In this document: positions 30,801 to 59,492 of the stretch, piece after piece | Layout: every line of letters starts with the position of its first letter | Numbering within the stretch: position 1 is the first letter of the stretch | From: Strigamia acuminata | Lineage: Eukaryota > Arthropoda > Chilopoda > Geophilomorpha > Linotaeniidae | DNA: 64,000 nt | Direction: 5' to 3' | Assembly: GCA_949358305.1 (NCBI GenBank) | Contig: OX442314.1 | Span: forward strand, 57,235,369 to 57,299,368 | Notes under the pieces: generated by a model | What the model was told of the DNA's origin: nothing | The model's input: only the letters and a program-made list of their open reading frames with translations | Databases searched by the model: none | Translations under genes and position numbers: made by a program

Positions 30801-32832
30801 ATTTCTGCGCCAACGGGATAATCCACGTGTAACGCGTGGCATCGTCGATGATGGTGAAAACATAATCCGAGCCGCCCAGTGACGTGAGCGGGGCTGGTCC
30901 CCACAAATCCATGTGTAGAAGATCCAATGGTTTCGATGTACAGGGATTCGGGTCCGGTTTATGTGAAGCTCTGGTCGATTTAGCAATTCTGCAGTCGTTA
31001 CACGACAATTCCTGTCGAACTTCAGCTGGTTGCAAACCATAAACCTGGTCGTTAGCTGCCAGAAGCTTCATTGCATTAGTATGCAGATGACCGAGTCGAC
31101 TATGCCATAGACCGGTGGCGTCTTTAACCGAAGCAGGATTAGCAATTACCTTCTTCTGTGACGGAGGTAAATTGCCAGGAGGAGGGGAAGTTGGCAGGAA
31201 TTGCAGAGCATTGGAATAGGACTGTGTGGTCGGATTGACAATGACCGGTGAAGAAACGGGAGTAAGGACGGGAAAATGAGTGGGATCGGTCAGGTTTGGA
31301 ATTGGTTGGGTGGGAATTGCCTTCACACTCTCAACCGCTGGCAGTTCGAAACGATAGTCTGTAATTTCCCGTTGCTTTTGTTTTCCTTTAGCCGGTTTCG
31401 GTACATTGTCGAAATCCACTTCTGTCGTGACCAGTGTTTTGACAGGTTGAATTACCGGTGGAGTGGCCGTCGAAACCGTTGTCGAACTGATGGGAACCGA
31501 ACACAAACCGTCCAAATAATACAAGCCACCACGTTCCTTTGCACGAATGATTGGCAAACGATAGTCCGATTCATAAACATTAACTTCTCCGTTGAAAATG
31601 TGGATATGATGTCGCGTTTTATCGATTTTCGACACCGAAATCAAATTGGCTTCGAAATTCGGTGCATATAGAACGTTGGTCAAATCCAAAACGCAATCTG
31701 CATCATCAACTGACGTGAGAAGTTGAACCGTTCCTCGTCCAGTAACTTGCGATTTGCCTTGGCCCAATTCGATATCGAAAGGCGGAATGTTCGTGAAATC
31801 GGTGAATAACGCTCGCACATGGGTCACGTGGTCGGTAGCGCCGCAGTCAACAATCCACTCATTGGATTGCATAAAGTGGGCAACTGGGCGCTCAACGACT
31901 TGCGGTGCACTGCAGAAAAATGTCCCTTTCCGAATTGGACGTGAGCTCCCTCGAGGACGAGTGTCTTCGACCTTGGCGACGGCGGTCTTATTCCGTCTTC
32001 GACTCTTACTTCTCGAGGAGCGTTGTACGGAAGCCGTCGACTGATTCGGGTTCGGATTCTCACGTCGAGGGTGGGGGCACTTATTCGCGTAGTGGCCCAT
32101 CTGGTCGCAATTGAAACACCGAATAGTTGACAAATCACGAGCACCGGATTTATTGCGTTGGCGAAACTGTCCTTTCGCAGAAGCATGAGCCGTCGGTGGA
32201 GTTGTTCGAAGCAGACCCGCCGATCTTAAACGAGATTGTTCGGATATCAACTGTTCGGCAACCAAAGTCGGTGTAAATTTGTCATCCGGCCAATGGTAAA
32301 TTGCGAACGTTGCCTGGGCATACTCAGGTGGCAATCCCTTAAGATACTGATATGCGTGGTGGTCGGGCGAAGTTTCCTCCTTAACGTCCTTTAATTGCCT
32401 CACGTAGTGATCGACTCGGGCAATAAAATCCGGCATATCCTCGTTGGGTCCAATCTGGAGATTTAAAAACTCCCAACGCATGGCTGCTCTTCTGGCCCGT
32501 GAGCTTGGCGCATAAATCTTAGCCAGCGCGTCCCACGCCTCTTTCGGCGTGTTGCACGTGTCCAACACTGATCTTTTGGGCTCGCTGACTTGGATATAGA
32601 TGTGACCGAGGGCTTTATCTTTCTTGGTCATGTACCGGTCCTTTTCTTTTTCCGTCAAGGTAGCTAAATGTTCGACTTCCTTCTCCTCGGTAACATGCCT
32701 CCAAAGGCCCTCGGACTTTAAGAGCATCCGCATCGATCGTTGCCACTGCTCGTAGTTTCCAACTCCGAGTACGGGAATTTTGCTCGATGAATCTCCAGAT
32801 TTGTGCATCGTGGCGTTGAAAACTGACAACAA
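27850..32832 (-). CDS. copia gag-pol polyprotein, 1660 aa, intact
   Basis: One frame from ATG 32832 to stop 27852-27850. Gag carries a UBN2-type domain (GVGNYEQWQRSMRMLLKSEG; WEFLNLQIGPNEDM) and a zinc knuckle CFNCDQMGHYANKC at residues 239-252. The protease motif is WIVDCGATDHVT at about 327-338; the active triad reads D-C-G where D-S-G or D-T-G is usual. A GAG-pre-integrase motif follows (LWHSRLGHLHTNAM). The integrase core has HMDLWGP, AIRSDRGGEF and NGTAERINR for D, D and E. RT has KWLFKLKTDAAG, DVKCAYLYGEL and LVYVDDIILF. RNase H has AYTDASWACDPET and AEFIALVECVKE with a later DALSA. No stop or shift was seen. It is capped by an acidic, Ser/Thr-rich linker between integrase and RT. Confidence 0.95.
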   Translation of the reverse strand: MLSVFNATMHKSGDSSSKIPVLGVGNYEQWQRSMRMLLKSEGLWRHVTEEKEVEHLATLTEKEKDRYMTKKDKALGHIYIQVSEPKRSVLDTCNTPKEAWDALAKIYAPSSRARRAAMRWEFLNLQIGPNEDMPDFIARVDHYVRQLKDVKEETSPDHHAYQYLKGLPPEYAQATFAIYHWPDDKFTPTLVAEQLISEQSRLRSAGLLRTTPPTAHASAKGQFRQRNKSGARDLSTIRCFNCDQMGHYANKCPHPRRENPNPNQSTASVQRSSRSKSRRRNKTAVAKVEDTRPRGSSRPIRKGTFFCSAPQVVERPVAHFMQSNEWIVDCGATDHVTHVRALFTDFTNIPPFDIELGQGKSQVTGRGTVQLLTSVDDADCVLDLTNVLYAPNFEANLISVSKIDKTRHHIHIFNGEVNVYESDYRLPIIRAKERGGLYYLDGLCSVPISSTTVSTATPPVIQPVKTLVTTEVDFDNVPKPAKGKQKQREITDYRFELPAVESVKAIPTQPIPNLTDPTHFPVLTPVSSPVIVNPTTQSYSNALQFLPTSPPPGNLPPSQKKVIANPASVKDATGLWHSRLGHLHTNAMKLLAANDQVYGLQPAEVRQELSCNDCRIAKSTRASHKPDPNPCTSKPLDLLHMDLWGPAPLTSLGGSDYVFTIIDDATRYTWIIPLAQKSQTFGAFKDFVARVERIQNTRVKAIRSDRGGEFMSNEFSNYLKEKGIQGQRTNPASPQMNGTAERINRTMADSVRSLISETQLPDDLWAELAVTFAYVKNRSPHSRLNNQIPYILWRQRALSLRHLRKMGSKCWVHYTAPGRKKLDPRAWEGYLVGYATGTRGYRVWNPVEDRVYETVHVKIDERQSYRKSLRGASQRPEETFSDVGQQSVSFNDNVQFHDWPRGSDSEHSDHSDDDSDNGGASHASGVSTSHSVHTPVIQLPPPTTPEQLLLDACALQLPSSASLGHSQSYPILYQEGDTDDDIADFDDQAILPRTSDFTGTSAEQSPRQSPPGSPARYITYRRKTRGADLSHTVSVFDDTPMSPAPIQHIVGTEVLPATDRHTAYIWRPIGGDSECSDWRREEHLRKDQVPGSIKTDVYYFPMPGIRLRSQRDVDEYCMLNNIDYDPSLFIWSNIEYTLPTIPGARHAAHLCRTEPASYAEIPKFSDAPKWREAIKEELDTFTEREVYLEVPRPPDTTILGCKWLFKLKTDAAGTITRYRARLVAQGFRQTLGVDYDEVFSPVVNFVLIRLFFCLLVVLRGWKDAHLDVKCAYLYGELKHKVYMRIPAGATCSNPNNVWLLIKSLYGLHQSGRQWFEKLDETLRDLGFRRMPACNCVYVFGNSAIMLVYVDDIILFYASDSVFDQLIRLISSKFQIVNLGPITKLLGVEFIRDMGRTFISQRAYIAKIIKKFGTSTNKLVKVPVTPGTTLVRGSTENLEDFPYRSLIGSLLFLASRTRPDILYSVIHLSQYNICYNKTHIRALLQVLQYVANTADFCIELSGCTSSQLWAYTDASWACDPETSLSFGGYITFIGNIPIGWSCRKQSTVACSTMEAEFIALVECVKELYWLDHVYLQFPILNRLSRPVIYSDALSAIQFTSNDVETSKTRHIRVRYHWLREWYTAGRFELRKVPGDLNVADIFTKWLGSERLQSLISRIFRL

Positions 32833-42710: not shown

Positions 42711-43305
42711 ATTGTAAAAAAGGTGAACGCAAACATCTACGGAAGCCTTAGGTAAATCGCGCACAAAAGCGTTGATACAAATAGACCCATCAAAGCTCCG
42801 TAGGCGTGTCAATTTTATCCCTAGTATTCAAAACAACAAGACCGCACCCAAACAAACATGGCGGACGCGAATGGTTAAGTTGTTTATTTATTACAGTAAT
42901 CTCTCACTTGGGATTTATTTTTCATGTCAGCTCAAGACTTGTTTATTGTTTTGGCATCATACTTATGGTTGATCATGTGTGACCAGCTGTCCCTGTGCAC
43001 CAATCTGTAGGCCCATGGTTAATTTAGCAACTGACAAGTAAGAGCCTAGTAAGTTACTTTGCTGTGGCATAGCTGCAACTTGTTAACTTAAATGGGCTGT
43101 AATTTATTGCATTTTGTTGAGTTATATATTTGAGCACTAATTATATCCTAAAAAATAGCAATTTATTTATTAATTGTATTATGTGAGCAGACGTGTTCAC
43201 ATCATACTGTTGTTTACATTATTTTTGTTAAGGTGCTGCAACGTACTTTTTTTTATATTGCGGCCAATCATAAAGCATTACGCTGTGCCTATCTGATTAT
43301 ATGTA

Positions 43306-44168
43306 TTAGACCTGTGCGCGGAGTCGAAACATTGAAAATAGATGTTGCAACACGTTGGAACAGTTTGCTTACAATGCTACAAAATTTTCGAAAAAACAAA
43401 GACGTAATTCGAATGATGCTGGAGAAACTGCAAAAATATAACTTGATTTTGTCGGATGCAGATGAGGAAATACTTAAGTCGCTAGAAACGGTACTTGAAG
43501 TGTTTAAAGATGCGACTGATATTTTGAATGGATCGAGGTATCCAACTTTGAATTGCGTTTTATTGTTCAAAACTGAAATATTGCATCAATTATCAGAATT
43601 TCGTATATCTGACGATTTAGAAATCTCAAATTACGCTAGAGTTTTGAGCTGTAATTTGGAAAAGCGTTTGCCTACGACAGAGGAGAATGTTGGTGCAGCT
43701 TTGTTGGACCCAGCTGCTCAGCATTTGGATATTGTAACAAATTATTTGATTTCTCGTAGCACGACAAAGTACCAATTTTTTAGAAGTCTAGCTAAGAAAT
43801 ATAATGTTTCCGTTTCCGTTACAACCCACAACGCTGAGACTGATAGTTCCCCAAAAGAACCACCACGTAAAAATTCCAGAGCCTCTTTACTGCTGAAATA
43901 TGCAGCTCAAATTCCCGAAACCAATGGACTTGCAAATGAAGTTGTAAAATATACAAATGTCCACGATTCAATTGAAGATGTTCTGATGTGGTGGAAAACA
44001 CACGAGACAGTATTTCCAATTTTATCTAAACTGGCAAAAATATCTTTGTGTATTCCTGCCACAAGCGCACCATCGGAGCGAGCATTTTCAACAAGTGGAA
44101 ATTTAATTTCTGCTAAACGAGCAAGTTTAAATCCAAAAACAGTTAAGGAAACTGTTCATTCACGATAA
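43306..44168 (+). pseudogene. hAT transposase, C-terminal part, frameshifted end
   Basis: An open stretch of about 285 codons begins VETLKIDVATRWNSLLTML and ends with the hAT dimerisation domain (WWKTHETVFPILSKLAKISL, then ATSAPSERAFSTSGNLISAK). The RW near the start and the SAPSERAFS block identify ZBED/hAT proteins. Near the end the frame is broken: the natural ending FIHDNY appears in another frame just after ETV, so two bases were lost or one gained. The N-terminal half (BED finger, catalytic Asps) is missing. Homology to copy 2 of the host repeat stops at about 43305, so the hAT piece was inserted here. An AATAAA-type sequence follows at about 44211. Confidence 0.82.
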
Positions 44169-45660: not shown

Positions 45661-46626
45661 CAGTGTTGTATCAAACGAGAACTAATAGTTCGCGTTCGCA
45701 AACTTAGTTCGTAGTTCGCGAACTACGAACGCGAACTAGTTCCCCGTTTTGAAAGAACGTGAAAAACGAACGAAGTTCGTTTTTTTGACGCGAACTACGT
45801 TCTAGTTCAGTTCTAGTTCGTTCACCGGACGTTTTATGTCACAGCCAATCATTGACGATTTCTTTTCTATTGTTTTGGCGGATTTGGCGGATTTGCAACA
45901 ATAGTTTTCCATTCAATTCCCTTTCGTAATCGTGTTTTCCGAGATCTTTTATCGCACTAATATGGAAGCTGAAGCTGTGGAGTTAACCGAAATTCGTAAG
46001 AAACCAGTGTTGTCTGAATGGTTTGAGTGATTAACACTTCGTAAATATTTACATGGTAGAAGACTTCCGGATTGTTATAGAAAAGATTCCATTAAAAAAA
46101 AATGGTTTCGAGTAAATTTTCTAGTAAAATTCCAACAAAAAACTTGCACGACAAAATCCATTGAAAAAGAGAGATAGAATTATCAATTATACGTCAAAAT
46201 GTGCACGAAAATTTGGATCCAGGATCGCGATACCGTTGGAAAATAATAAAATAAAAGAATGAACCAATCAAACGCGTGTTAAACGTATTAACGACGTCGA
46301 CAATACATTCTAGTTGTATTCAACGACTGTTTACATGCAAATCAAATCATTAATTCTTTCAATCATTCGACATGCCGTACAGGAAATCGACAACCAGTCT
46401 TGAGGAATTATGTTTGCTTACAATCATTACTAATTTCGATTCAAATTTTTATTCACACCAGGTTCAAATAAAAATTTGAATTCGTAAAAAAATATTTGTA
46501 AAATGAACTGAACTAGAACTGAACTAGAACTGAACTAGAACTTAGTTCACTTGGAGTTTTTGGGGGTGAACGGGAACTAGAACTAGTTCCCTAAATTGAA
46601 AACGGTGATGAACGCGAACTAGAACT

Positions 46627-47704
46627 TGTGGTGACCTCAAATATTCCTATTTGAGTGCGCACCATATTTCCAAATTGTCTTATAAACATATTCAACAAAC
46701 TTATATGTTTTGTTTCAATGTAAATTGAAATAAAACATACATTAATAAAATATAAAACAAGACACAATATTACCCAAATAATATTGTGTTTTGCAGCAAG
46801 TTTTGGCCCAGCAACAGCGTCAACCAATCGCGCTGCAGCGTGCATTGCTTTGATGATGCTGCTAGGCGTGTGCCTGGGCGGAGCATCCCTTCCCCTCGCG
46901 CGTGCCCGGCTCGATTGTTGCACACGACCCGAAGGCGGCCGTGTGTGATCTTCATGCAACTCGTCATCTGCGCAGCTTTTCTGAGCAGATTTAGAAGTGA
47001 GCCAAACGGTTTTGGCCCACTCTTCCCGCACTCTTGATTCCACCTCCAAACTGTTCACAACCGTGTCAAACTTCTGCCAAAACTGCAAAGTGTGATCTGT
47101 GATTCTTGGACGAATTGAGTTTCATCGCTGGTCTGTACCCACTGTACGGAATAGCAACTTTCTAGCTTGAATTACTACGAGTAATTTAAGCCATTTCTGT
47201 GTGTGAAACTAACATCGAGTTTACTCTGTTAGTTTGAAGGCTTTGTGTCGAGTTTAACTCCACAAGGCGAATTGTGTTAAGACGGATTGTTACGTCGAGC
47301 TTGCTCCGTAATAATCAAATCGCTGTGTGCAAGACGTATTCTCGTGTTGAGCTTGCTCCGCGAGGATTTTTAGTATATTTTAGCAAAGTATTTTAGCGTC
47401 GAGTTTACTCCGCTAAAATCCCGCGCTCACACGACGCCATCGACGCCATTTTGGAGCCAACGGTCAACTGTGAGTGTCCAAGTACGAAGAGAAACCAGAT
47501 CGACCCAGTCATTACACTTATTATTTCGCATTATATTCGGGTGTATTTAAAACGATTAAAACAATCTAATTTTTCCTTTACTCTGTGTAAAATCATTCCC
47601 CTAGACAACCATTTGGCCACAGAGTAGAAGTCCTGTACGGCATCTCACCGACGATTGCTTGTTAAATTTATATAATTTAATAAGTAAAAACCCGGATCGC
47701 CGCA
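46627..47704 (+). repeat. 5' LTR of gypsy B
   Basis: 1078 bp, TGTGGTGACC...GGATCGCCGCA. TATA-like TATAAAA is at 46751-46757. An AT-rich first part is followed by a GC-rich block (46800-46990) and then the hairpin array at 47166-47419. An antisense open frame crosses 47088-46591, but with identical LTRs there is no way to judge whether it matters. Confidence 0.93.
47166..47419 (+). promoter_or_regulatory. Array of five hairpins with a shared apical motif (5' LTR)
   Basis: Five stem-loops share the 12-base apex TCGAGYTTRCTC. Positions (left arm / apex / right arm): 47206-47214/47215-47226/47227-47235; 47240-47247/47248-47260/47261-47268; 47285-47294/47295-47306/47307-47316; 47338-47346/47347-47358/47359-47367; 47390-47398/47399-47410/47411-47419. 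The arms differ completely in sequence (AAACTAACA, GCTTTGTG, GATTGTTACG, ATTCTCGTG, ATTTTAGCG) yet pair over 8-10 bp, with only G-U exceptions. Within the apex GAG can pair with CTC, leaving a YTTR loop whose outer pair alternates T-A and C-G, and a 2-base 5' bulge (TC or TT). Hairpin 2 has one extra A and hairpin 4 has TT for TC. A related hairpin with a different loop lies just upstream (47166-47190). Function unknown. Confidence 0.8.
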
Positions 47705-47706
47705 CT

Positions 47707-47724
47707 TGGGGGCCCGTCCGGGAT
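47707..47724 (+). other. Primer binding site of gypsy B (tRNA-Pro type)
   Basis: TGGGGGCCCGTCCGGGAT starts two bases after the 5' LTR. It matches the known tRNA-Pro primer site used by murine leukaemia virus at all but one of 18 positions. Confidence 0.85.
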
Positions 47725-47796
47725 TGTTTTGATTATTAAAATCCGATTTTTGCGAAAAAATCCTTTATTTCCATTGTTCTTTTTCAATTTGACAAA

Positions 47797-50688
47797 ATGG
47801 CGACGCCAATGCAAATTGTAAAACGACAACGAGGTCGACCAAGCACTCAGAAACGAGCAGCGACGGTTTTGCCGGCTCTCGAGCCTGAAATGCTTATGGA
47901 GAAAATTATTTCTGAAGAAATAACACCAGTTCCAGATCCGAAACAACTTAAGGATGCTGAAAATGAAGTTGCTAGAGCATTAAGCGCTTCAAGTGCGAGT
48001 TCTAACGACCAAGAACTCCCGCCACTTCCACTGGAGGAAGTGGAAAATACGTTACGTGAAATGGAAAGTGAATCGTCTCACGAATCACCTCCTCGCATGA
48101 CCATGTTGGATGCTTTGAGAAATCAAGCACGCCAAGATGGCGCCCAAATAACGGACGACATGACGGTGGAAGAGATTCATCGCGCCATGATACGACTTCA
48201 CACTGACCGAGCCGTTTCAAATTTACAATTTGAAATGGAACGAAAAGAAGCTGAGCTTCAACAACAAAAAGCGGAGGTTGAGCTTCAACACATGGAACTC
48301 AATCGACAAAATGAGGAATTTCTAGCCCAAAAAGCTAGAGAATACAGATTAAAAGGTGAAGTGGAAGATCTTTCTAAAATGAATACTAGAAATGAACTTT
48401 CAATTCGCTCACACCAAGAGGCGCGAAGACAGCTCGAGCTTACCAAAAGTAAGCTGGAGCAGAAAAATAAAGAATTGATTGATTTGGCAGACCACTACCA
48501 ACGCAATCATAATCAACTAGTGAGATATGCTGCTGAATTAGACACACGTGCTAAAACACAGCGTACTCGCGAAAGCAAAATAGCTAAGCGTGAAGACGAG
48601 ATTTTCCACTCGCTGGATCAACCCAGTACGAGCGGACAAGTCAAGTCTAGCGGCCCTGCTAAGCGATTACAACCAGAATCGCAAAATCAAATAAACGAGA
48701 ATGAAATTCTCCGAGCTGATTTGTTACGCGCTCAAGAAGAGCTTGCAGAAATGAAAGACCGTTTGCAAGCAAGAAATTATACTGACCAATTGGTGCAACC
48801 AGAAATGGCTGCGCCAACTGTCCCTATTTTGACTCCCGAAACAATAACAATTTCTGTTGTTTCAGAGTTAAGTAGCCAATCTGGATTATCGAGTGATGAC
48901 GACCAACGTTCGCGTCGTCGCCATCGCTCAAAAAGAAAACGTCCTTCAGATTCTGAGGAACGGAGAGCTGATCGCAATCCGCTCCCTGGTAATCGAAACC
49001 CTATTTTTCACAACAGTGACCGACTGTTGGGGATAGTAGACGATCGAAATAGACGGCATGAAACTGGTATTCATGTTACTCGAACGATACCACTGACTCA
49101 ACAGCAAGACTCGTCAAAAAGAAGTCGACGAGACACCAATCCAACACGCGAACCGCCGGACGGACATGAAAGCCCGCCAGGTGGGGGTCAGTATAGAAGA
49201 AATCCACCAGATGGAGGAAATCCAGATGGACATGGAGATGGACCACCTGGAGGTGGACGTCGACCGCCCGACGATGACGGCGACCCACCCGACCCACCTG
49301 AAACACCACATTTTAACACGCCTTCAAATTCACAATCTGATTCAAGGTCGGATTCTGATGTGAATGCGCAACAAGAACGCGATAATCGACATCGATCTCA
49401 TCGACGTCGACATCGAGGCCATTCTTCTCGGCGTAATACACATTATTACACTGCTGAAGAAATTGATCGATTATTAGCTGATCGTCGATCTTCCGATCGA
49501 TCTGACGCTACTGCCGATAATGCTGATATTGCATTACGACAAAAAATTGCACAATATACTGCCAACAACTGGACTCACGATCTAGTTGATGAAAGAACTA
49601 TTAGATGGGATCACATCAAACCCGCTTTATTCGATGGAGAATGGGAAGCTGGATCCACTCTTTTAGATGAAGTGTTACGAATTTCAAGGTTGAATGGCAT
49701 TGCATGTCACACTGCTTTGAAAAGAGTAGTACCAAAAGCTCTTATAGATCGAGCTGAGAAATGGTTTTATTCTAAACAATTTCAAAACTGGAATCACTTT
49801 GTAGAGGAATTCATGACTGAATATGGGGAGTCAAGTGAAGACTTACTACAAATGTGGGATAATCTTTCTCAAAATAAAGGCGAAAGTCTTCGCTCTTATT
49901 TAAGAAGGACTGAGGATTTATTGGTCACTCTCCCTTATACAATGGGAGATGCAGCCATTGATCGTCAATTCCGACGTGGATTGACAGATTATTCAAAAAA
50001 TGTTCTACTTTCAGTACGAGCACCTTATCCGGGTGGTTTCGCTGAATTAGCCAAATTTATGCGAGCCAATCAAATAAGGATTGACGAAAATTATAAAGCT
50101 TATCTACCAGCTGATGAAAAAGTTGCGTACGCTAAGCGACAGCAACGGAGAAAGGAATTAGCAAAAGACACACGTTTTGCTAACACCCCTCTTTTGCAAC
50201 CCCCAAAACGAGGAGATTTTTTGGCAGAGACTGCTAAGGAATCTAAAAAGGGATCGGATGGGAAAAATCCACATCCAACCCCTAAAGCTCACTTAGCCGA
50301 AGTGACTGAAATGGAAACTGCTTCTGAACCAGAGAAATCTGACTCGGAACCAGAAAGCGAGGCTGCAGCTGCTTTATTAGCCCGTAATAACGCAGTAGCT
50401 CGAAAATTTGGACCAAAGATGACGCCTAAAAACGTTACTTTTGGTTCACCAAAGACAGACGCGCTCAGTAGATCGAAGTCGCCGACCCCTAAAAAGGACG
50501 AAGCCAAACGTTCAAGTTCGCCTTCGCCAAAAGTCGCGAAATCGCCTGCTACTGACCCGTGTAATATTTGTAAAAAATTGGGACATTGGGCTAAAGAATG
50601 TCCTGATAGGAAATCGAGCAAAGACAAGATCATTGAGGAGTTCGAAAAATCGATGAAATCAATCGGCGAGCTTCTAAAAAACTTGTAA
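47797..50688 (+). CDS. gypsy B Gag, 963 aa
   Basis: ATG at 47797 (MATPMQIVKRQRGRPST, an AT-hook-like R-G-R-P) to TAA 50686-50688. Order: basic N-terminus; long charged coiled coil at about 130-270 (Glu/Gln/Lys heptads such as MERKEAELQQQKAEVELQ); Arg/Ser and Gly/Pro-rich linker around 385-560 (RRHRSKRKRPSDSEERR, PPDGGNPDGHGDGPPGGG); capsid-like domain at about 590-770 (HIKPALFDGEW, MTEYGESSEDLLQMW, ESLRSYLRRTEDLL); acidic stretch; zinc knuckle CNICKKLGHWAKEC at 922-935; short helical tail. At 963 residues it is longer than common gypsy Gags (about 300-500), owing to the coiled coil and linker. The stop sits 3 codons after a -1 slippery site leading to pol. Confidence 0.92.
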   Translation: MATPMQIVKRQRGRPSTQKRAATVLPALEPEMLMEKIISEEITPVPDPKQLKDAENEVARALSASSASSNDQELPPLPLEEVENTLREMESESSHESPPRMTMLDALRNQARQDGAQITDDMTVEEIHRAMIRLHTDRAVSNLQFEMERKEAELQQQKAEVELQHMELNRQNEEFLAQKAREYRLKGEVEDLSKMNTRNELSIRSHQEARRQLELTKSKLEQKNKELIDLADHYQRNHNQLVRYAAELDTRAKTQRTRESKIAKREDEIFHSLDQPSTSGQVKSSGPAKRLQPESQNQINENEILRADLLRAQEELAEMKDRLQARNYTDQLVQPEMAAPTVPILTPETITISVVSELSSQSGLSSDDDQRSRRRHRSKRKRPSDSEERRADRNPLPGNRNPIFHNSDRLLGIVDDRNRRHETGIHVTRTIPLTQQQDSSKRSRRDTNPTREPPDGHESPPGGGQYRRNPPDGGNPDGHGDGPPGGGRRPPDDDGDPPDPPETPHFNTPSNSQSDSRSDSDVNAQQERDNRHRSHRRRHRGHSSRRNTHYYTAEEIDRLLADRRSSDRSDATADNADIALRQKIAQYTANNWTHDLVDERTIRWDHIKPALFDGEWEAGSTLLDEVLRISRLNGIACHTALKRVVPKALIDRAEKWFYSKQFQNWNHFVEEFMTEYGESSEDLLQMWDNLSQNKGESLRSYLRRTEDLLVTLPYTMGDAAIDRQFRRGLTDYSKNVLLSVRAPYPGGFAELAKFMRANQIRIDENYKAYLPADEKVAYAKRQQRRKELAKDTRFANTPLLQPPKRGDFLAETAKESKKGSDGKNPHPTPKAHLAEVTEMETASEPEKSDSEPESEAAAALLARNNAVARKFGPKMTPKNVTFGSPKTDALSRSKSPTPKKDEAKRSSSPSPKVAKSPATDPCNICKKLGHWAKECPDRKSSKDKIIEEFEKSMKSIGELLKNL

Positions 50689-50717
50689 GCGCGCATCCAG
50701 ACGGTCTAGTGGATGCG
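50676..50717 (+). promoter_or_regulatory. -1 ribosomal frameshift signal between gag and pol
   Basis: The heptamer A AAA AAC (50676-50682) is in the right phase for the gag frame (CTA AAA AAC TTG TAA). Nine bases later a perfect 8-bp stem begins: CGCATCCA (50692-50699) pairs with TGGATGCG (50710-50717) over a 10-base loop. Slipping back one base moves reading into the pol frame, which is open through this point (CTT GTA AGC GCG). This is the classical slippery site plus stimulator layout. Confidence 0.85.
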
Positions 50718-53700
50718 ACGCCTACCGCCTCGGAAAATGAACTAACACCATCTCAGATTTTAGATGAATTTTTAAATACCCAGATTAAATTAGAAATCGA
50801 AAATAATTTAATATTTCCAAAAATTGATGTTTCCAGTTTAAAGCTTGTGCTACAAAGTGAAAACATCACTGAGGAATTTTTTAAAGAAAAAGTTCAACAA
50901 ATAAAAGTTGATTGGGAATCTAAAATAAAAGATGCTGTTACTTTACTAGATGGAAAAGCTAGGCCCACACCTGAAATTGTTGAAAGGTCAGGTAAAATTG
51001 ATTTACCTGGTCTTGATGAATGCATTGAAAAATTAATGGCTACAACGCTAGTCACTAATGATTTATTGGACGAATTACCATTGGATCCGCCAATAGAAAT
51101 TAAGCCACCGCGACGTTTTAAATGCAAGTACGCGGACATACCAAACAGCAATGATTTGCCGACGATTCGATTGCAGACGGCAAACGGTATGATAACAGGG
51201 ATGTTAGACTCTGGAGCTAATCGAAGCTTCATGGCCTACTCCGTAGTAATTTCGCTGAAACTGGAAGATGAAATTCGACCAATAGGACCGGATGTGAGAG
51301 TTACGACTGCTTCAGAAGATGTAGTCCCTGAAGGGACTCTCCTACTTTCTTTTGCATGGACACACGGGATGTTAAGTCATCCATTCATAATTTTAAGAAA
51401 TAAATATCCTATTATTTTATTAGGATGTGATTTCATGAATCGACTCAATATTCAACCAAATCCTAAGACCATGTCTTGGAATTTTGTCAAGTCTTTGAAA
51501 GAAGATTTACCTTTTGTTCCTCAAGCGATTCTTGATCGTTATCAAGAGTTTCTTGATCCACCCGAAGAAATCATGAAACGCGACTTTATTAAAGCAAATC
51601 ACATGAAAGCTGGTTCCGCCACTGCATGTCAAGCTAAAGTTGCCGATGAAGAAAATATAGTACAAAGACTTGTTAGCGATGCTAATTTGTCAATGGAAAA
51701 TAATTTAATGCTTGAAAAAGTATTAAAGAAACATGAAAAGATTTTATCACGCCGACCAGGTAGAACACACCTCGTTAGGCATGAAATTAAACTGGACACT
51801 AAAGTTCCGATTAGAGTTCCGTTTAAAAGCGTAAATCCACAGAAACGTGAAATTATCCGTCAAATCTGTCAAGATATGTTGGATAATGGGTACGTTGAAC
51901 AAGCCACTGGAGACTATGGGATGCGAATAGTTCTAGTGATGCGTCCGGATTGTGATCCAAGACTCTGCATTGATTTTAGACCACTCAATGCACATACATT
52001 ATACGACCCTCCTCAAATGCCCAGCATTGAGGAAATCTTGCGAGAACTCGGAAGGTTTGAATGGGTCACAACAATAGATTTGTCAAAAGGCTATTGGCAG
52101 ATAGAGGTTCATCCGAACGACCGTGCTAAAACTGCATTTTGGAGCCCTTTGGGTCGACTACAATTTCGAGTCATGCCCTTTGGTCTCGTAAATGCGCCGT
52201 CAACTTTCCAGAAGTTAATAGAAAAAATTTTGGGGGACGCCTATCGAAAATTTGCATGGGCATACCTCGATGATATAATCATTATATCTAAAAATTTTGA
52301 AGAACACATGATTCATCTGGAAGAAATTCTGAGTAAACTTGAAAATGCAAATCTTCATGTTCATCCAGAAAAATCGAAATTTGGCAGAAAAGAATTAACT
52401 TTTCTTGGTTACAAGTTAAGTGTTCAAGGAGTTAATGTCGACCCTAAAAAAGTCGCCGCCATTAAAGAAATGCCAGCTCCTTCAAATTTGAAAGAGTTGC
52501 AAAGGTTTTTGGGAATGGTGAACTTTTTTCACCGATTACTTAAAAATCTGGCAGTAATGACAGAACCTCTACGTCCTTTACTCAAAAAGGATGTGGAATT
52601 TATTTGGTCAGAAATTCATCAAGAAGCTTTTGATCAAATAAAAGATGCTTTAACGAATGCAGAAACAATGGCCATGCCTGATTTGACAGAACCATTTATT
52701 GTGCATACCGACGCCAGCAGAAAAGGACTAGGCGCCGCGCTTATGCAAATGAGAGAAATCGATGATCAAAATATCGAAGTGCCTTGTGTTTATGCCAGCA
52801 GAAGTTTACAACCTGCTGAGATAAATTACAGCGCCACAGAATTGGAGTGCCTAGCGGTAATCTGGGCATTACGTAAATTTCGACATTATTTGGAATTTAC
52901 AACATTCATAGTAAGGACTGACCATCAAGCATTAAAATGGTTGATGCAGTTGGACGAACCTGCTGGAAGGTTAGCGCGTTGGCAAATGGAGCTAATGCGC
53001 TACTCTTTCGAAATACAATATATTAAAGGTCCACTAAATGTTTTAGCGGATGCTTTATCCAGATCACCGATTGATAAACCAGAAAATCCTGAAGATGATG
53101 GAGATAATGACGAATTATTATCTTACTGTCCATCACCACAACGAAAATGGAAAATGGGAAAATTCCATGAGCTTCCTGTCTCCACATTAGAGGAAAAGGA
53201 AGATCATGAATTCGTCAACTATTGGACTAAAATTTATGACTCCTCTGAGGAATCAGATGACGTCATAAGAGCGCAAATTTCAAGGAAATTCCAAGTTCCT
53301 TCGTCAAATGTTTTAATAAAAGCATTTGTCGCCAAAATTGTAGAACGTCTTGATTGTGAACCTCCCACAAGGGAAGACATAATCAAGGCCCAAAAAGAAG
53401 ATAAAGTTTGCCAATTGATGCGTAATTTTTTAAATTGTAATCAATTTCCGCCTGACGTCACAACGCGACTCCAGAGGAAACAATATAGAAAACACGCAAC
53501 CACCTTCTTAATTGAAGATGACTTATTAATGCAATTTCATCCCACAATGTCTGATGAATTGGGGGAGGATGGGAGAGCACTCAAAGTTTTTGTACCTCAG
53601 ACATTGAAGTATAAAATTATTTGGCTGATGCATGGCCACCCACTTTCTGGCCACCCAGGAATTGCAAGGACTCTTTATCGAGCACGCCGAATTTATACCT

Positions 53701-55157
53701 GGAAAGGCATGAAATCGGACATTACGAGATTCATTCGACATTGTGAGCGTTGTCAAGCTTGCAAACCTCGAACGAAAGGACAAATTGAAGCAGCGCAAAT
53801 GGGTCCTTACAGCCCATTTGACTGTCTAAGTGTTGATTTGACCGGCCCAAAACCTCGGACGCGCAAAAACAACACACATATTTTAGTCATACTTGATGTG
53901 GCAACTCATTGGCCAGAATTATATCCAATGTGTAACCCCACTGCTGGAAAAGTAGCAAATTGCATTTATCACCTTTCCATGAGCATGGGATTCCCTCGTA
54001 AAATTATTTCTGACAACGGCCCGCAATTTCGTGCCCAAGTCTTTAAAAAATTTTGTGAAAAGTTCAAGATGGTTCCAACACCAACTTCAACGTATCACCC
54101 ACAAGCTAACCCGGTTGAAAGGGTTAACCGTGACATCAAATATTTGGTTGCAATTTATTCATCTGTTCATTCCAAATGGGACGAATATTTGCGTGAATTT
54201 GCATTTAGTTTGAGAACTACGGTGACGAGAGGAAGAGACTTCTCTCCCGCATTTCTTAACTTTTTTCGCGAACTCAGAGTACCTTGGGATCCAAGAATAC
54301 CTGAAGGAATTTTGGTCGTAGATCCAAAAAACCCACATTTATACGTGCAAAAATTAGAAGCCGTTATCGCCGAAACATATCAGCACATGATGTCGCACGT
54401 GTTAGATTTGCGTAGACGAGTTAATCTTAAAAAAGAAGGTGAGAAGTTCTCCAATTTTAAATTAAACGATTTAGTTTGGAGAGATTCTCATGTTTTGTCG
54501 AGCGCTGCCCGCGGCATTGCAGCTGGCATCGCTGATAAAAGAACAGGACCTTATGTAATAACCAAAGTATTACAGGGAGGTTCAGTAGAATTGAGAAAGC
54601 TAGAAAATAACGAAATATTTCCAGCTGTCCATTCGTCTGAATTAACTCCGTATTTCCCGAGTTTCGACCAGGAAGTATGGTTAGAAGGCGAAGAAGTCGG
54701 TCAAAAGACTGAAAATATAATTAATACGTTAGATGACGATGAATTAAAGAAAATACCTGTCGATAATTCATCCAAACCACAAATGGAGTCAGACCTCGTG
54801 AATAACGACGTTGAACTTCGTGACAGTTTCAAAAAGCTTGAAATTGCTAAAAAAATAAATAAAAAGGTGTTTTTAGAAAAGAAACAAAAAACATCTGAAA
54901 TAAAAGACTCATCTGACTCAGTCTCCGATGACAATGAAGACGGCGATTTAAATACAATAAATCCCTCGCCGACAAAGAGATATAATCTTCGGACTCGTAA
55001 ACCGAGAGGAAAAAACAACATGTGTCTTCTCCCCTCGCTAACCTCGAGATCCAGGGATCAGCCGTATGACGTAAGGAGCAATTCCTCAAGCCATACTCAA
55101 ACCATTCAAACAGTAAGATTGGATGACGTCACTAACAGCGACGTTACCCAAACGTAA
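50682..55157 (+). CDS. gypsy B Pol (protease, RT, RNase H, integrase)
   Basis: Open from the frameshift site to TAA 55155-55157; about 1482 residues counted from 50709. Protease: MLDSGANRSFMAY (DSGA). RT: CIDFRPLNAHT, TIDLSKGYWQI, FGLVNAPSTFQ, WAYLDDIIIISK (YLDD at about residue 520). RNase H: VHTDASRKGLGAAL, SATELECLAVIWAL, VRTDHQALKWL, ADALSRSP. Integrase: finger HPGIARTLYRARRIYTW...CERCQACK, core acidic residues in LSVDLTGPK, IISDNGPQF and NPVERVNRD. A C-terminal part follows with a GPY-like motif (DKRTGPYVITKVLQGG) and an acidic/Lys-rich tail. All catalytic residues are in place and no stop interrupts it. There is no separate start codon; translation is expected through frameshifting as Gag-Pol. 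Confidence 0.95.
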   Translation, partial: LVSAHPDGLVDATPTASENELTPSQILDEFLNTQIKLEIENNLIFPKIDVSSLKLVLQSENITEEFFKEKVQQIKVDWESKIKDAVTLLDGKARPTPEIVERSGKIDLPGLDECIEKLMATTLVTNDLLDELPLDPPIEIKPPRRFKCKYADIPNSNDLPTIRLQTANGMITGMLDSGANRSFMAYSVVISLKLEDEIRPIGPDVRVTTASEDVVPEGTLLLSFAWTHGMLSHPFIILRNKYPIILLGCDFMNRLNIQPNPKTMSWNFVKSLKEDLPFVPQAILDRYQEFLDPPEEIMKRDFIKANHMKAGSATACQAKVADEENIVQRLVSDANLSMENNLMLEKVLKKHEKILSRRPGRTHLVRHEIKLDTKVPIRVPFKSVNPQKREIIRQICQDMLDNGYVEQATGDYGMRIVLVMRPDCDPRLCIDFRPLNAHTLYDPPQMPSIEEILRELGRFEWVTTIDLSKGYWQIEVHPNDRAKTAFWSPLGRLQFRVMPFGLVNAPSTFQKLIEKILGDAYRKFAWAYLDDIIIISKNFEEHMIHLEEILSKLENANLHVHPEKSKFGRKELTFLGYKLSVQGVNVDPKKVAAIKEMPAPSNLKELQRFLGMVNFFHRLLKNLAVMTEPLRPLLKKDVEFIWSEIHQEAFDQIKDALTNAETMAMPDLTEPFIVHTDASRKGLGAALMQMREIDDQNIEVPCVYASRSLQPAEINYSATELECLAVIWALRKFRHYLEFTTFIVRTDHQALKWLMQLDEPAGRLARWQMELMRYSFEIQYIKGPLNVLADALSRSPIDKPENPEDDGDNDELLSYCPSPQRKWKMGKFHELPVSTLEEKEDHEFVNYWTKIYDSSEESDDVIRAQISRKFQVPSSNVLIKAFVAKIVERLDCEPPTREDIIKAQKEDKVCQLMRNFLNCNQFPPDVTTRLQRKQYRKHATTFLIEDDLLMQFHPTMSDELGEDGRALKVFVPQTLKYKIIWLMHGHPLSGHPGIARTLYRARRIYTWKGMKSDITRFIRHCERCQACKPRTKGQIEAAQMGPYSPFDCLSVDLTGPKPRTRKNNTHILVILDVATHWPELYPMCNPTAGKVANCIYHLSMSMGFPRKIISDNGPQFRAQVFKKFCEKFKMVPTPTSTYHPQANPVERVNRDIKYLVAIYSSVHSKWDEYLREFAFSLRTTVTRGRDFSPAFLNFFRELRVPWDPRIPEGILVVDPKNPHLYVQKLEAVIAETYQHMMSHVLDLRRRVNLKKEGEKFSNFKLNDLVWRDSHVLSSAARGIAAGIADKRTGPYVITKVLQGGSVELRKLENNEIFPAVHSSELTPYFPSFDQEVWLEGEEVGQKTENIINTLDDDELKKIPVDNSSKPQMESDLVNNDVELRDSFKKLEIAKKINKKVFLEKKQKTSEIKDSSDSVSDDNEDGDLNTINPSPTKRYNLRTRKPRGKNNMCLLPSLTSRSRDQPYDVRSNSSSHTQTIQTVRLDDVTNSDVTQT

Positions 55158-55367: not shown

Positions 55368-58203
55368 ATGGAAGGAGAGGAACCGAAAGAAGGAAGCGAA
55401 GCCGGCGCCAACAGCCTCGAATTAGAAACAAATTCGACGCTGCTTGGTTCCGCAAACACTTCGAATGCATCCGTGGATGTCACCGAAGAGTCCGCCGAAG
55501 CGTCCGCTGAAGCTCAAGCCGCTCTAGCCGACGCTGCTGCCCGTTTGCCAGTCACGCCGTCTCAGCCCCGACTTCGAGGAGGCCTATTCGCCGATCCAAA
55601 CGGCGAAACTCGTGCACAGAGACACGACCGGGTAAATAATTTAAAATAAAATTACCTTTCAGTCATGAAAAGTAATTAAAAGTGCATTTTCACTCCGAAA
55701 AAGCAAAAAGTTCGTTGGTAACGCCTTCGCAAGAAGACGCCGCCATTATTATCATCAGATGGCGCTGTGTCTCATTTTTGAGGCGTTGCTACGGTAACGC
55801 TCCAAACACTGAAACATAGCCGTCGGAAACAACGTTTTTCACGATTTTTCAAATATTTTGAAAAATTTAACGAATCTAAACTGCCGAATGAAATCTCACC
55901 CGTGATTTTATTCACTGAAAATTCGGAAATAATTATTTTACACGAAAAAATGGATTTTAATTATTTCTTCGAATATTTTACAGATCATCCAACTTCGGGA
56001 GACGCATCTCGACTTGCACCCCGATGTTCCGACCGCTCCTGGTGTCTGGCGACATGCATTGCCGCCAGAAATCATCAAGTCCAAAGGAAGACTGACGTTT
56101 TGGGCGGCCCGACACAAATTCTCCAAGGCCTTAAACAAGCGATGGGGAACGAAGTTTCGGATCGCCTACTTAATCGATGGATTCGGTCATCGCGACGCCC
56201 TCGAGTGGGCAATGAAGCGCGACACCTTCGGACCACTGCGAAACGTGTTGCTCGACTTCGCCTTCACAGTGATCGCTCAAGAAACGCGAGACCATCGCCG
56301 TTACTTCAACGCTCCTGCGTGGGAGCGTCGACAGATTTTGGAGGACATTTTCCAACGCTTGGATCAAACCAAGGCCGAGGTTGTACGCCTCTACAACGAA
56401 TCTTTCCGTGTAACAACGGACGGAAAGAAACGTTGGGTGCCGACATGCCAGTCGGAGATGCATCAACTAGCCATGGGCGGATGTTTCCATGCAGATTTCG
56501 TGCCGAACCCGTATCCAGAGCCTGAGCCCCGGGTACAGGTCGCTTCCACCATCCACGTGGTGCCACCGCGCTCCACGTCGAGGTCACGATCATCGAGGTC
56601 GCCCTACAGTGGCCGTCGCTCCTCCCCAACACAGTCGTCGGGGGAAGGCGCCATTGGAGGGTTACCTCCACTCCAGAAGGCTCGTCATCGCTCACATCAC
56701 CGACGCGAGCCGACGCCGCCGAAAAGACATTCGAAGTCCGTATCGAGACCCACATCCCGAAGCCGACCTCGAGTGCAATCGCGTCAATCTTCCACGAGGA
56801 GTTCACTCTCGTCGCGTGAAGAACGATCCAACGCTTCACAGCTTACCGCTTCCTCCTCCGGCCGGATTGACTGGTCGGACGAGATAGCGAAGGAAGATCA
56901 ACGCATCGCCGCATTGCAAGCCGGTCAGGGAGACGTTAACACCTCTTTGCCGTTCGCTTGCCGTCCAGTCACCAGCGACATGCGACCAGATCCATCGGTG
57001 CCCGTGCCACAAGTGACATCGGTCATCCGTTTTGAGGGATACGTCTCTCACGAACCATTTCCCGCACAGGAGTGCGCTGATCTCTGGAGGCGATTCTCAT
57101 CGTTTCCCGAGACAGCCCAAACGATGTACCTCGCGCATCTGGACGAATACCAACTCGCTCAGATCCGCGAAGGTGAGAAGGAATGGCAATGGCTTGCGCG
57201 AGAGCTTACGTCGTGCAAGTCCGACAAGCAACTGCAACGGACGCTGCAGAAGATGAACAGGAAGTTGTCGGAGGGACTTCTTCGAATCCTGTTCCAAGGA
57301 GTCTTTCCCGACCCACAGATTGCTCTGGCCGCCGCCACTCGATTGTGGACCGTGCCGCTAGGGCTTCCACGAGCCTTGCTGGACGATTGGGAGTCAGTTC
57401 GCCCCGATCCTCCAACGATGCTCGCCGAATTGACGCAACAAGCCGAGGCGACTGGCGAAACTCCGGCTGGATCCGCCATTCGACTACGGCAGGAATGGGC
57501 TGCGCTGAAGCAGCGACGCACAGCAGAACGAGCCACCGCCCGTCCCGCTGGCGCACCACCGTCATCCGCAGCTCCACTCCACGCTGCCATCACGGCAACG
57601 TCGAGTGTTTCCCGTGCGACCGAGGCACCGAGTTGCAACATCTCGTCTCCGATGGAATGGCTCGACAGCGACGATCGCGAGTTCGTCGTGCCTGTGGCCT
57701 GCGGTGCCAGACCAAAGACGCGCACCCCGGCTTTACGCAGATCCAGATCCCTCTCGATCTGCAAGAAGTCGCCGCCACCGCCGCCTCCTCCAAAGGATTC
57801 GCCGCCAAGAGATAGGGGATCGAGTATGGCCACCCACCTCACCGCCTATCAACGTTTGCGCTCATTATACGCCTTTTGCTACATAACGAGCGCAACGAAA
57901 ACGATTCTCCAGAACAGCGAGGATTTATGCAACCGAGTCCTCGCGTGGCTGGAAAACCACATCAAGGAACAGCAGCCGTGGATCCTGCATCAACGCCTGG
58001 TGTTCGCTCGAATTACGCCTCAAGACCCGCAGGAGTACTTCGAGATGGGTTTTGGACGAAGGGATGGTGTGGACCGCATCAAGCAAGTGTGGCTCCACAT
58101 CAACCCTGGCTTCCGGTCAGGACCAAACGCCGGCCGACCTTTGTGCACCGTCACCGAGCACAAAGATCCAAACGATCATTCGACGGACATGTTGCCGAAA
58201 TAA
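55368..58203 (+). CDS. gypsy B ORF3, spliced, unknown function (not an envelope)
   Basis: Exon 55368-55631 (ATG at 55368, MEGEEPKEGSEAGAN) and exon 55984-58203 join in phase 0 across a 352-bp intron (donor CGG/GTAAAT, acceptor TTTTACAG), giving 827 codons before the stop. I do not recognise the family. The first exon is acidic and Ala-rich. The second begins with a folded-looking region of about 150 residues (KGRLTFWAARHKFSKALNKR, LLDFAFTVIAQETRDHRRYF). Then comes a Ser/Arg-rich segment (RSTSRSRSSRSPYSGRRSS) of RS type, a second helical region (SFPETAQTMYLAHLDEYQLA), a Pro run and a third region of about 110 residues (WILHQRLVFARITPQDPQEY). No signal peptide, transmembrane segment or furin-like site is seen, so the position of env is filled by something else. 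Codons are far richer in G and C than gag and pol, suggesting a captured gene. Confidence 0.7.
55632..55983 (+). other. Predicted intron in ORF3
   Basis: GT at 55632, AG at 55982-55983. The first exon frame would otherwise stop six codons on (TAA at about 55647). AT-rich against GC-rich exons. Joining the exons keeps one open frame. Confidence 0.6.
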
Positions 58204-58377: not shown

Positions 58378-59455
58378 TGTGGTGACCTCAAATATTCCTA
58401 TTTGAGTGCGCACCATATTTCCAAATTGTCTTATAAACATATTCAACAAACTTATATGTTTTGTTTCAATGTAAATTGAAATAAAACATACATTAATAAA
58501 ATATAAAACAAGACACAATATTACCCAAATAATATTGTGTTTTGCAGCAAGTTTTGGCCCAGCAACAGCGTCAACCAATCGCGCTGCAGCGTGCATTGCT
58601 TTGATGATGCTGCTAGGCGTGTGCCTGGGCGGAGCATCCCTTCCCCTCGCGCGTGCCCGGCTCGATTGTTGCACACGACCCGAAGGCGGCCGTGTGTGAT
58701 CTTCATGCAACTCGTCATCTGCGCAGCTTTTCTGAGCAGATTTAGAAGTGAGCCAAACGGTTTTGGCCCACTCTTCCCGCACTCTTGATTCCACCTCCAA
58801 ACTGTTCACAACCGTGTCAAACTTCTGCCAAAACTGCAAAGTGTGATCTGTGATTCTTGGACGAATTGAGTTTCATCGCTGGTCTGTACCCACTGTACGG
58901 AATAGCAACTTTCTAGCTTGAATTACTACGAGTAATTTAAGCCATTTCTGTGTGTGAAACTAACATCGAGTTTACTCTGTTAGTTTGAAGGCTTTGTGTC
59001 GAGTTTAACTCCACAAGGCGAATTGTGTTAAGACGGATTGTTACGTCGAGCTTGCTCCGTAATAATCAAATCGCTGTGTGCAAGACGTATTCTCGTGTTG
59101 AGCTTGCTCCGCGAGGATTTTTAGTATATTTTAGCAAAGTATTTTAGCGTCGAGTTTACTCCGCTAAAATCCCGCGCTCACACGACGCCATCGACGCCAT
59201 TTTGGAGCCAACGGTCAACTGTGAGTGTCCAAGTACGAAGAGAAACCAGATCGACCCAGTCATTACACTTATTATTTCGCATTATATTCGGGTGTATTTA
59301 AAACGATTAAAACAATCTAATTTTTCCTTTACTCTGTGTAAAATCATTCCCCTAGACAACCATTTGGCCACAGAGTAGAAGTCCTGTACGGCATCTCACC
59401 GACGATTGCTTGTTAAATTTATATAATTTAATAAGTAAAAACCCGGATCGCCGCA
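58378..59455 (+). repeat. 3' LTR of gypsy B
   Basis: 1078 bp, partner of 46627-47704, read as identical; followed by AACT (59456-59459). Confidence 0.93.
58957..59170 (+). promoter_or_regulatory. Hairpin array, 3' LTR copy
   Basis: Same five hairpins as in the 5' LTR, shifted by 11751 bases. Confidence 0.8.
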
Positions 59456-59492
59456 AACTAGTTCGCGATTTAGTGAACGAGATACAACACTG

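Follow-up and report, generated by a model that had tools for sequence, protein, structure and literature searches.

The window analyzed here, a stretch of 64,000 nucleotides from Strigamia acuminata, contains a young Ty3/gypsy element bounded by two LTRs that are identical at 1078 of 1078 bases (Table 1). The Ty3/gypsy assignment made in a preliminary description of this DNA holds, the Pfam domains of the pol product running in the order RT (418-570), RNase H (658-765), H2C2 (962-1021) and integrase (rve, 1035-1131) and the Gag product carrying a zinc knuckle; with the LTRs, the primer site and the short target-site duplication, the element shows features by which an LTR-retrotransposon of this type is recognized. 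The primer site, which we take to be of the tRNA-Pro type, was the same in two other elements of this genome (L045 and L046) and one base off in three more (L059, L062 and L042). Relatives found with pol were animal elements (pseudoscorpion, insects, fish) with no more than 47% identity among the best 120 of 809 matches, which indicates that there is no close named relative, and a protein search with Gag, in which 7992 candidates were scored, returned none at E 0.001. Other mobile-element coding regions were noted in the window at 3460-5451 (-), 20635-24210 (-), 27850-32832 (-) and 43233-44168 (+), the types represented being a second Ty3/gypsy-type element, Pao/BEL, copia and a hAT dimerization domain. 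Inverted repeats and two AATAAA motifs were also seen at 46700-46800, near the 5' end of the LTR.

Table 1. Features of the Ty3/gypsy element and of its hairpin array, in window coordinates.
Feature	Position	Strand	Remarks
Target-site duplication AACT (4 bases)	46623..46626 (left copy); 59456-59459 (right copy)		sequence
5' LTR (TGT...GCA), 1078 bp	46627..47704	+	identical to 3' LTR
H0, sixth hairpin, without the apex	47165..47191	+	12-nt arms, 92%
H1, apex 47215-47226 TCGAGTTTACTC	47206..47235	+	R2 46.6 bits
H2, apex 47248-47260 TCGAGTTTAACTC (13 nt)	47240..47268	+	R2 17.3 bits only, E 0.2
H3, apex 47295-47306 TCGAGCTTGCTC	47285..47316	+	R2 49.7 bits
H4, apex 47347-47358 TTGAGCTTGCTC	47338..47367	+	R2 41.3 bits
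H5, apex 47399-47410 TCGAGTTTACTC	47390..47419	+	R2 46.7 bits
Primer-binding site TGGGGGCCCGTCCGGGAT, two bases past the LTR	47707..47724	+	sequence
gag ORF, 963 aa	47797..50688	+	Pfam: Retrotrans_gag, zinc knuckle (CCHC)
Gag arginine-rich stretch 1, residues 371-386 RSRRRHRSKRKRPSDS	48907..48954	+	putative partner of the array
Gag arginine-rich stretch 2, residues 531-546 RHRSHRRRHRGHSSRR	49387..49434	+	putative partner of the array
pol ORF	50709..55157	+	Pfam: RT, RNase H, H2C2, integrase
Third ORF, 729 aa, RS-rich, 3' of pol	56014..58203	+	no Pfam match
3' LTR, with second array copy at 58957-59170	58378..59455	+	LTR comparison; hairpins listed there

Five stem-loops had been described in 214 bp of the LTR (47206-47419), and all five were present at these positions in both LTRs, with arms of 8-10 pairs that contain 0, 1, 1, 2 and 0 G.U pairs in H1-H5, respectively, i.e., none in two hairpins and one or two in the rest, as had been stated. 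The apex said to be shared by all five is common to H1 and H3-H5 but not in length to H2, where it measures 13 rather than 12 nt, and the array, placed at first in the 3' third of the LTR, actually spans approximately 54-74% of the 1078 bp, from the middle to the last third. A hairpin model (R2) run over the remaining window gave a single match (13.3 bits, E 2.2), and an Rfam scan of 46500-48500 gave one match, far under the gathering score and away from the array. All five hairpins were drawn in the minimum-energy fold (-86.5 kcal/mol, z -3.95, equalled by 0 of 200 shuffles); since the antisense strand also beat its shuffles (z -4.06), strand is not given by fold energy alone. Among 3000 dinucleotide shuffles of 47166-47430, the maximum was three such hairpins, and the apex was never common to even two. 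Similarity within the array averaged 46% for arms (10 hairpin pairs) and 85% for apices (6 pairs, H2 excluded). H3, H4 and H5 are spaced at 52-base steps and, over 30 bases, H4 and H5 were 80% and 67% like H3, respectively, which suggests tandem duplication.

Similar tips are widespread in the genome (237.5 Mb, 157 contigs), where TYGAGYTTRCTCYG occurred at 891 places (413 + 478) as opposed to 18 (10 + 8) for a reversed control. A search with the window array matched at least 49 stretches (a lower bound, since 40 of the 258 candidates were scored), and among RT matches, of which 116 were scored of 3897 candidates, 88 were 97-100% and 28 were 75-78% identical. The first loci compared were 20 places from the first 100 found by the apex pattern, all on one contig. 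Hairpins that matched T.GAG.TT.CTC and had no fewer than 7 of 9 positions paired were selected, and 27 of 29 were used; constancy of the letters in this set is by construction, the pattern having selected them. Paired cells numbered 348 of 351 (99.1%) and cells changed on both sides 97, values reached in 0 of 500 shuffles each. Nine of the 13 pairs showed two-sided changes, a count matched by 120 of 500 shuffles, and the number of further pair types was as good in 22 of 500. The outer apical pair, left free by the pattern, was C-G in 16 hairpins and U-A in 11, with no exceptions. A second selection tolerated two substitutions in the apex and applied no filter to the arms; of its 53 candidates, 47 had at least 7 of 9 positions paired, and the six poorly paired ones were a type II hairpin (L013; see below), two versions of a site upstream in the LTR, two candidates on the opposite strand and a lone one (L020).

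Changes at individual pairs were followed in an alignment of 11 LTRs from the family of the window element, family A (the window and 10 of 16 stretches, aligned whole). In H5, a change of G-C to A-U was accompanied by one of A-U to G-C, at 47398/47411 and 47395/47414, and in H1 both partners had changed in two stem pairs as well as in the outer apical pair, with a fourth pair changed in one copy. H0 had a single two-sided change, in one copy, and its innermost pair was open in 10 of 11 copies; H4 lacked its outermost pair in 9 of 11, and isolated misfits occurred in L032, L037 and L039. One LTR (L034, at the same place as L018) contained seven hairpins, having expanded by two at H1, and because it bears both H1 variants, part of the change at H1 may reflect choice between paralogues and not repair in place. 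G.U cells far outnumbered A.C cells in family A (33 vs 1 over 43 distinct hairpins, 35 vs 5 over all 47), a bias that marks the sense RNA.

Other LTR families carried arrays of other composition. The usual order in family B (22 copies, i.e., 20 of 40 matches plus L042 and L031) was a type Ib hairpin (TTGACTTGTTC or TTGATTTCATC), a type II hairpin (CACC(T)GCGAGCTT..CTCCGGA), a type I hairpin as in the window and another type II hairpin. In three copies (L081, L082 and L084) the third slot held a type Ib hairpin in place of type I, which indicates that single hairpins can be exchanged as units. Family C (13 copies, i.e., 12 of 41 similarity matches plus L046), represented by L045 and L046 (RT identity 78%), had type Ib bulges of two or three bases; part of type Ib was lost in L102, and L095 and L098 had a damaged type II. 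The apex was also present on hairpins in stretches that do not align to the window LTR (L035, called D, L040, called E, and L036). As in family A, whole stretches were aligned for families B and C. Alignments of these hairpins used 23 of 41 in one case (A3) and 17 of 26 in the other (A4). Outer stems of type II in families B and C were paired in 96.2% of cells, with two-sided changes at 7 of 17 pairs (0 of 500 shuffles); further pair types were reached by 11 of 500 shuffles, and 9 of 20 rows failed at the outermost pair. The covariation score of type Ib stems was no better than that of shuffles (144 of 500 reached the same), an internal A.C mismatch recurred in them (a C.A cell at one position in 10 of 16 rows), and the G.U bias was absent from 31 hairpins of families B-E and L036 (22 A.C vs 17 G.U cells). 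Around arrays of the L042 type, stems without the apex were noted that had changed on both sides (CTCGGGTAACGCCCGAG to CTCGAGTAACGCTCGAG, in L074 and L079), as was a GCGCAACAAAC...GTTTGTTGCGC stem below the array in L042 and its relatives.

When R2 was applied to 19 stretches upstream of RT matches, only L059 and L062, with RT 97-98% alike, were matched; the type Ib and II hairpins of L045 and L046 were missed by this model and found by eye and by pattern. In a sister family at RT 75%, the LTR at L055:343-1509, the sole LTR without an array to be located, had a primer site that shares its first part with that of the window; absence of the array is established for this LTR alone, the remaining stretches at RT 75-78% having yielded no LTR.

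The evidence for a selected structure is thus strong for family A and type II and moderate to weak for type Ib. Stem mutations in related copies left uncompensated, which the preliminary description had named as evidence against structure, were mostly absent, two-sided changes being found in their place; the weak type Ib stems and the frequent A.C cells of families B-E are the part that did not conform. Its central proposal, an RNA under selection for its fold and for a recognized tip, gains support from two-sided pair changes beneath a nearly fixed apex.

As to the position of the array in the RNA, four LTRs of families B and C (L042, L031, L045 and L046) had a TATA-like CATAAAA upstream of the array, at 246-279 bases from its first apex, together with AATAAA downstream of the array, an arrangement that would place the array in the repeat region, R. 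Two of them (L045 and L046) also had AATAAA near the LTR start, and CATAAAA was lacking from L035. Signals in the window were weaker (ATTAAA at 47555, AATAAA at 46729 and 46744, TATAAA at 46681 and 46751), and there a start near 46711, followed by a long U5, is equally possible. Whatever the start, the transcript includes an LTR at one end at least; from the signals listed we infer which end would carry the array.

Constancy among the tips was greatest around the bulge. The base below it was a purine in all 47 hairpins from the first loci and in all 31 from families B-E and L036 (four hairpins are in both sets, and the count covers types I and Ib only). The first bulge base was U in 46 of 47 (C once, in L028) and was fixed by the search pattern in the set of 31, while G-C followed by A-U lay above the bulge in 46 of 47, all candidates no more than two substitutions from the apex; hairpins that break this core numbered 2 of 47, both in L028. 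The type Ib slot keeps G-C and A-U with few exceptions (TTCAC in L078, core lost in L102). Variation in types I and Ib affected the loop, the third upper pair and the length of the bulge (UU, UC, UCU, UCC), the variants of the tip being GAGYUURCUC, GACUUGUUC, GAUUUCAUC, GAUUUUAUC, GAUUUGAUC, GACUGGUUC and GAACUAUC. The constancy of the UU loop and of the third upper pair in family A exceeded what the core by itself requires. Type II, with C, U or A as bulge base, gave no clean fit.

These constant positions recall the arginine sandwich, in which a base is supplied by the pair preceding the bulge and a bulge pyrimidine caps through a triple with the stem; in TAR, U23 forms this triple with an A-U pair and the arginine bonds to G26 (PMC6189040). 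The TAR triple is flanked by a G-C pair on either side, and HIV-2 naturally has a UU bulge (PMC11885821). Judged by composition, the tips of types I and Ib (purine, U-first bulge, G-C, A-U) would correspond to such a sandwich, a three-dimensional form that we infer, and the letters of the type I tip agree with each described feature, an agreement recognized after the fact. By our estimate, approximately 1 in 100 random bulged hairpins would fit so short a core, and in an exploratory census of any bulged hairpin the core was present in 61 of 333, mostly relatives.

Comparison with known systems gave partial likeness in each case. Like TAR, the array is LTR-derived RNA with a purine below a bulge of two to three bases that begins with U, followed by G-C and A-U (and G-C again in type I); unlike TAR, it has a UU loop (closed by U-A or C-G) and not a hexaloop, comes in five to seven copies, belongs to a Ty3/gypsy element in which no Tat was found and may not lie at the cap. 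The TAR hexaloop binds cyclin-T1. Gammaretroviral GACG hairpins of psi are likewise repeated upstream of gag, but the array loops are not GACG and are unable to self-kiss, and the array tip is bulged. Like the Su(Hw) insulator of gypsy, the array consists of tandem repeats around a constant core and lies in an untranslated region of a Ty3/gypsy element, but the insulator repeats are DNA sites without paired arms. The array shares with the first stem of this host's 7SK the letters CA-UU-GA and GAUCUG and with 7SK the close placement of several motifs, since sandwiches there lie near one another (PMC6189040); it differs in having one motif per hairpin and no GAUC palindrome and in being retroelement RNA. 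In agreement with the earlier statement that no five-hairpin array of this kind was known, none was found in a limited search of the literature on LTR hairpins and TAR-like elements, which does not establish its absence from print.

The reading we consider likeliest, though tentatively, is that the array serves as a multivalent docking site of the sense RNA on which an arginine-rich protein would bind, the Gag of the element itself being the most likely one. Capping would fall to the first U of the bulge, with an arginine inserted against the G; a series of such tips would bind the protein with avidity, and Gag, by way of its arginine-rich stretches, would pick its own genomic RNA and start assembly on the array, which would lie in R and hence at both ends of the RNA. 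Four 16-residue stretches of Gag contain 7-9 R/K, RSRRRHRSKRKRPSDS and RHRSHRRRHRGHSSRR being the most basic, so that these two, which may serve as signals for nuclear import, are not unique within the protein. RSQKKRKR and SRSRPRSRRQQHRR occur at similar places in Gag of family C, and Gag of the sister family without the array has KKKR at about the place of stretch 1, a comparison of three families that is too few for a test; in family B, where the pieces examined were broken or not gag, no such stretch was seen. The N-termini of Gag in families A, B and C (gag starts of the window, L042 and L046) contain an AT-hook-like motif, RGRP. The RS-rich product of the third ORF may be another partner of the array.

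A host protein could also read the bulged tip by another rule, the array then acting in export, stability or translation of the RNA, as constitutive transport elements do by binding NXF1. Such a role, which would suit repeated tips in an untranslated LTR as well as the excess constancy of the family A loop and third upper pair, seems rather unlikely, since loop and third pair vary in families B and C while the core of types I and Ib stays.

Somewhat less probable still is mimicry of TAR or 7SK, by which the array would capture HEXIM or compete with 7SK, bring or free P-TEFb at the LTR and raise elongation. A single 7SK match in the host genome exceeded the family cut-off, and its first stem according to the Rfam alignment has CAUUGAUC on one strand and GAUCUG on the other; in the Rfam consensus CA is paired, UU bulged and GA.. 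paired, letters that match those around the bulge of an H1 hairpin of the L030 type (CA-UUGAG...CUC-UG). Two host HEXIM genes over the cut-off have basic motifs (KTKKHNRGKGRKHKW and KLKKTRRGKKRKLRN), and TAR and Tat of HIV provide a precedent (PMC6189040). Against this, few letters match, energy folding of the isolated 7SK piece draws the first stem differently and omits the bulged stem, and the first array apex lies 246-279 bases past the TATA-like box in the four LTRs described above, unlike TAR at the cap. No Tat family was among the Pfam matches (E 0.001) of four ORFs, a search that a diverged Tat would escape. The narrower proposition that a TAR-like array evolved independently, mimics the HEXIM site of host 7SK and seizes HEXIM and P-TEFb in the absence of Tat is a little more doubtful again. 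The second HEXIM-like gene (L094, 1294-2088, -) is divergent, the canonical one being at L093.

Binding of the Gag zinc knuckle or dimerization through the loops, as proposed in the preliminary description, is about as improbable as mimicry in the broad sense. The element does encode a CCHC knuckle and the array is upstream of the primer site, but the UUUA and CUUG loops are not self-complementary, which disfavors dimerization of the kissing type. Knuckles of studied retroviruses prefer an unpaired G, and the tips of H1, H2 and H5 have none; in H3 and H4 the G of the CUUG loop would be free if the outer apical C-G pair opened, and knuckle binding is accordingly less favored.

A function of the array as DNA, i.e., as tandem palindromic binding sites of an insulator or enhancer, would find a precedent in the gypsy insulator repeats and would fit repeats in an LTR and the missing G.U bias of families B-E; it is very unlikely, given that arms differ between hairpins yet pair and that the G.U excess of family A marks RNA. 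Least probable of all is that the array has no present function and consists of leftovers of tandem duplication and recombination, as the 52-base steps and the two H1 variants of L034 might suggest, since arms have diverged far more than apices, pairing is kept across several LTR families and the compensations in H5 and type II already disfavor it.

Compensated stems, changed loops and bulge lengths and swapped units together point at a recognized core, which in the preferred reading would be bound by arginine-rich Gag. To our knowledge, the cis-acting RNA signals of Ty3/gypsy elements are poorly mapped, and the hundreds of places with the apex in this genome offer one module in many natural variants. 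Should the core prove to be an arginine sandwich, recognition of the TAR type would extend beyond lentiviruses and 7SK, and if the reading through HEXIM and P-TEFb were true, a second lineage of retroelements would have found the trick of HIV, with many hairpins in place of one.
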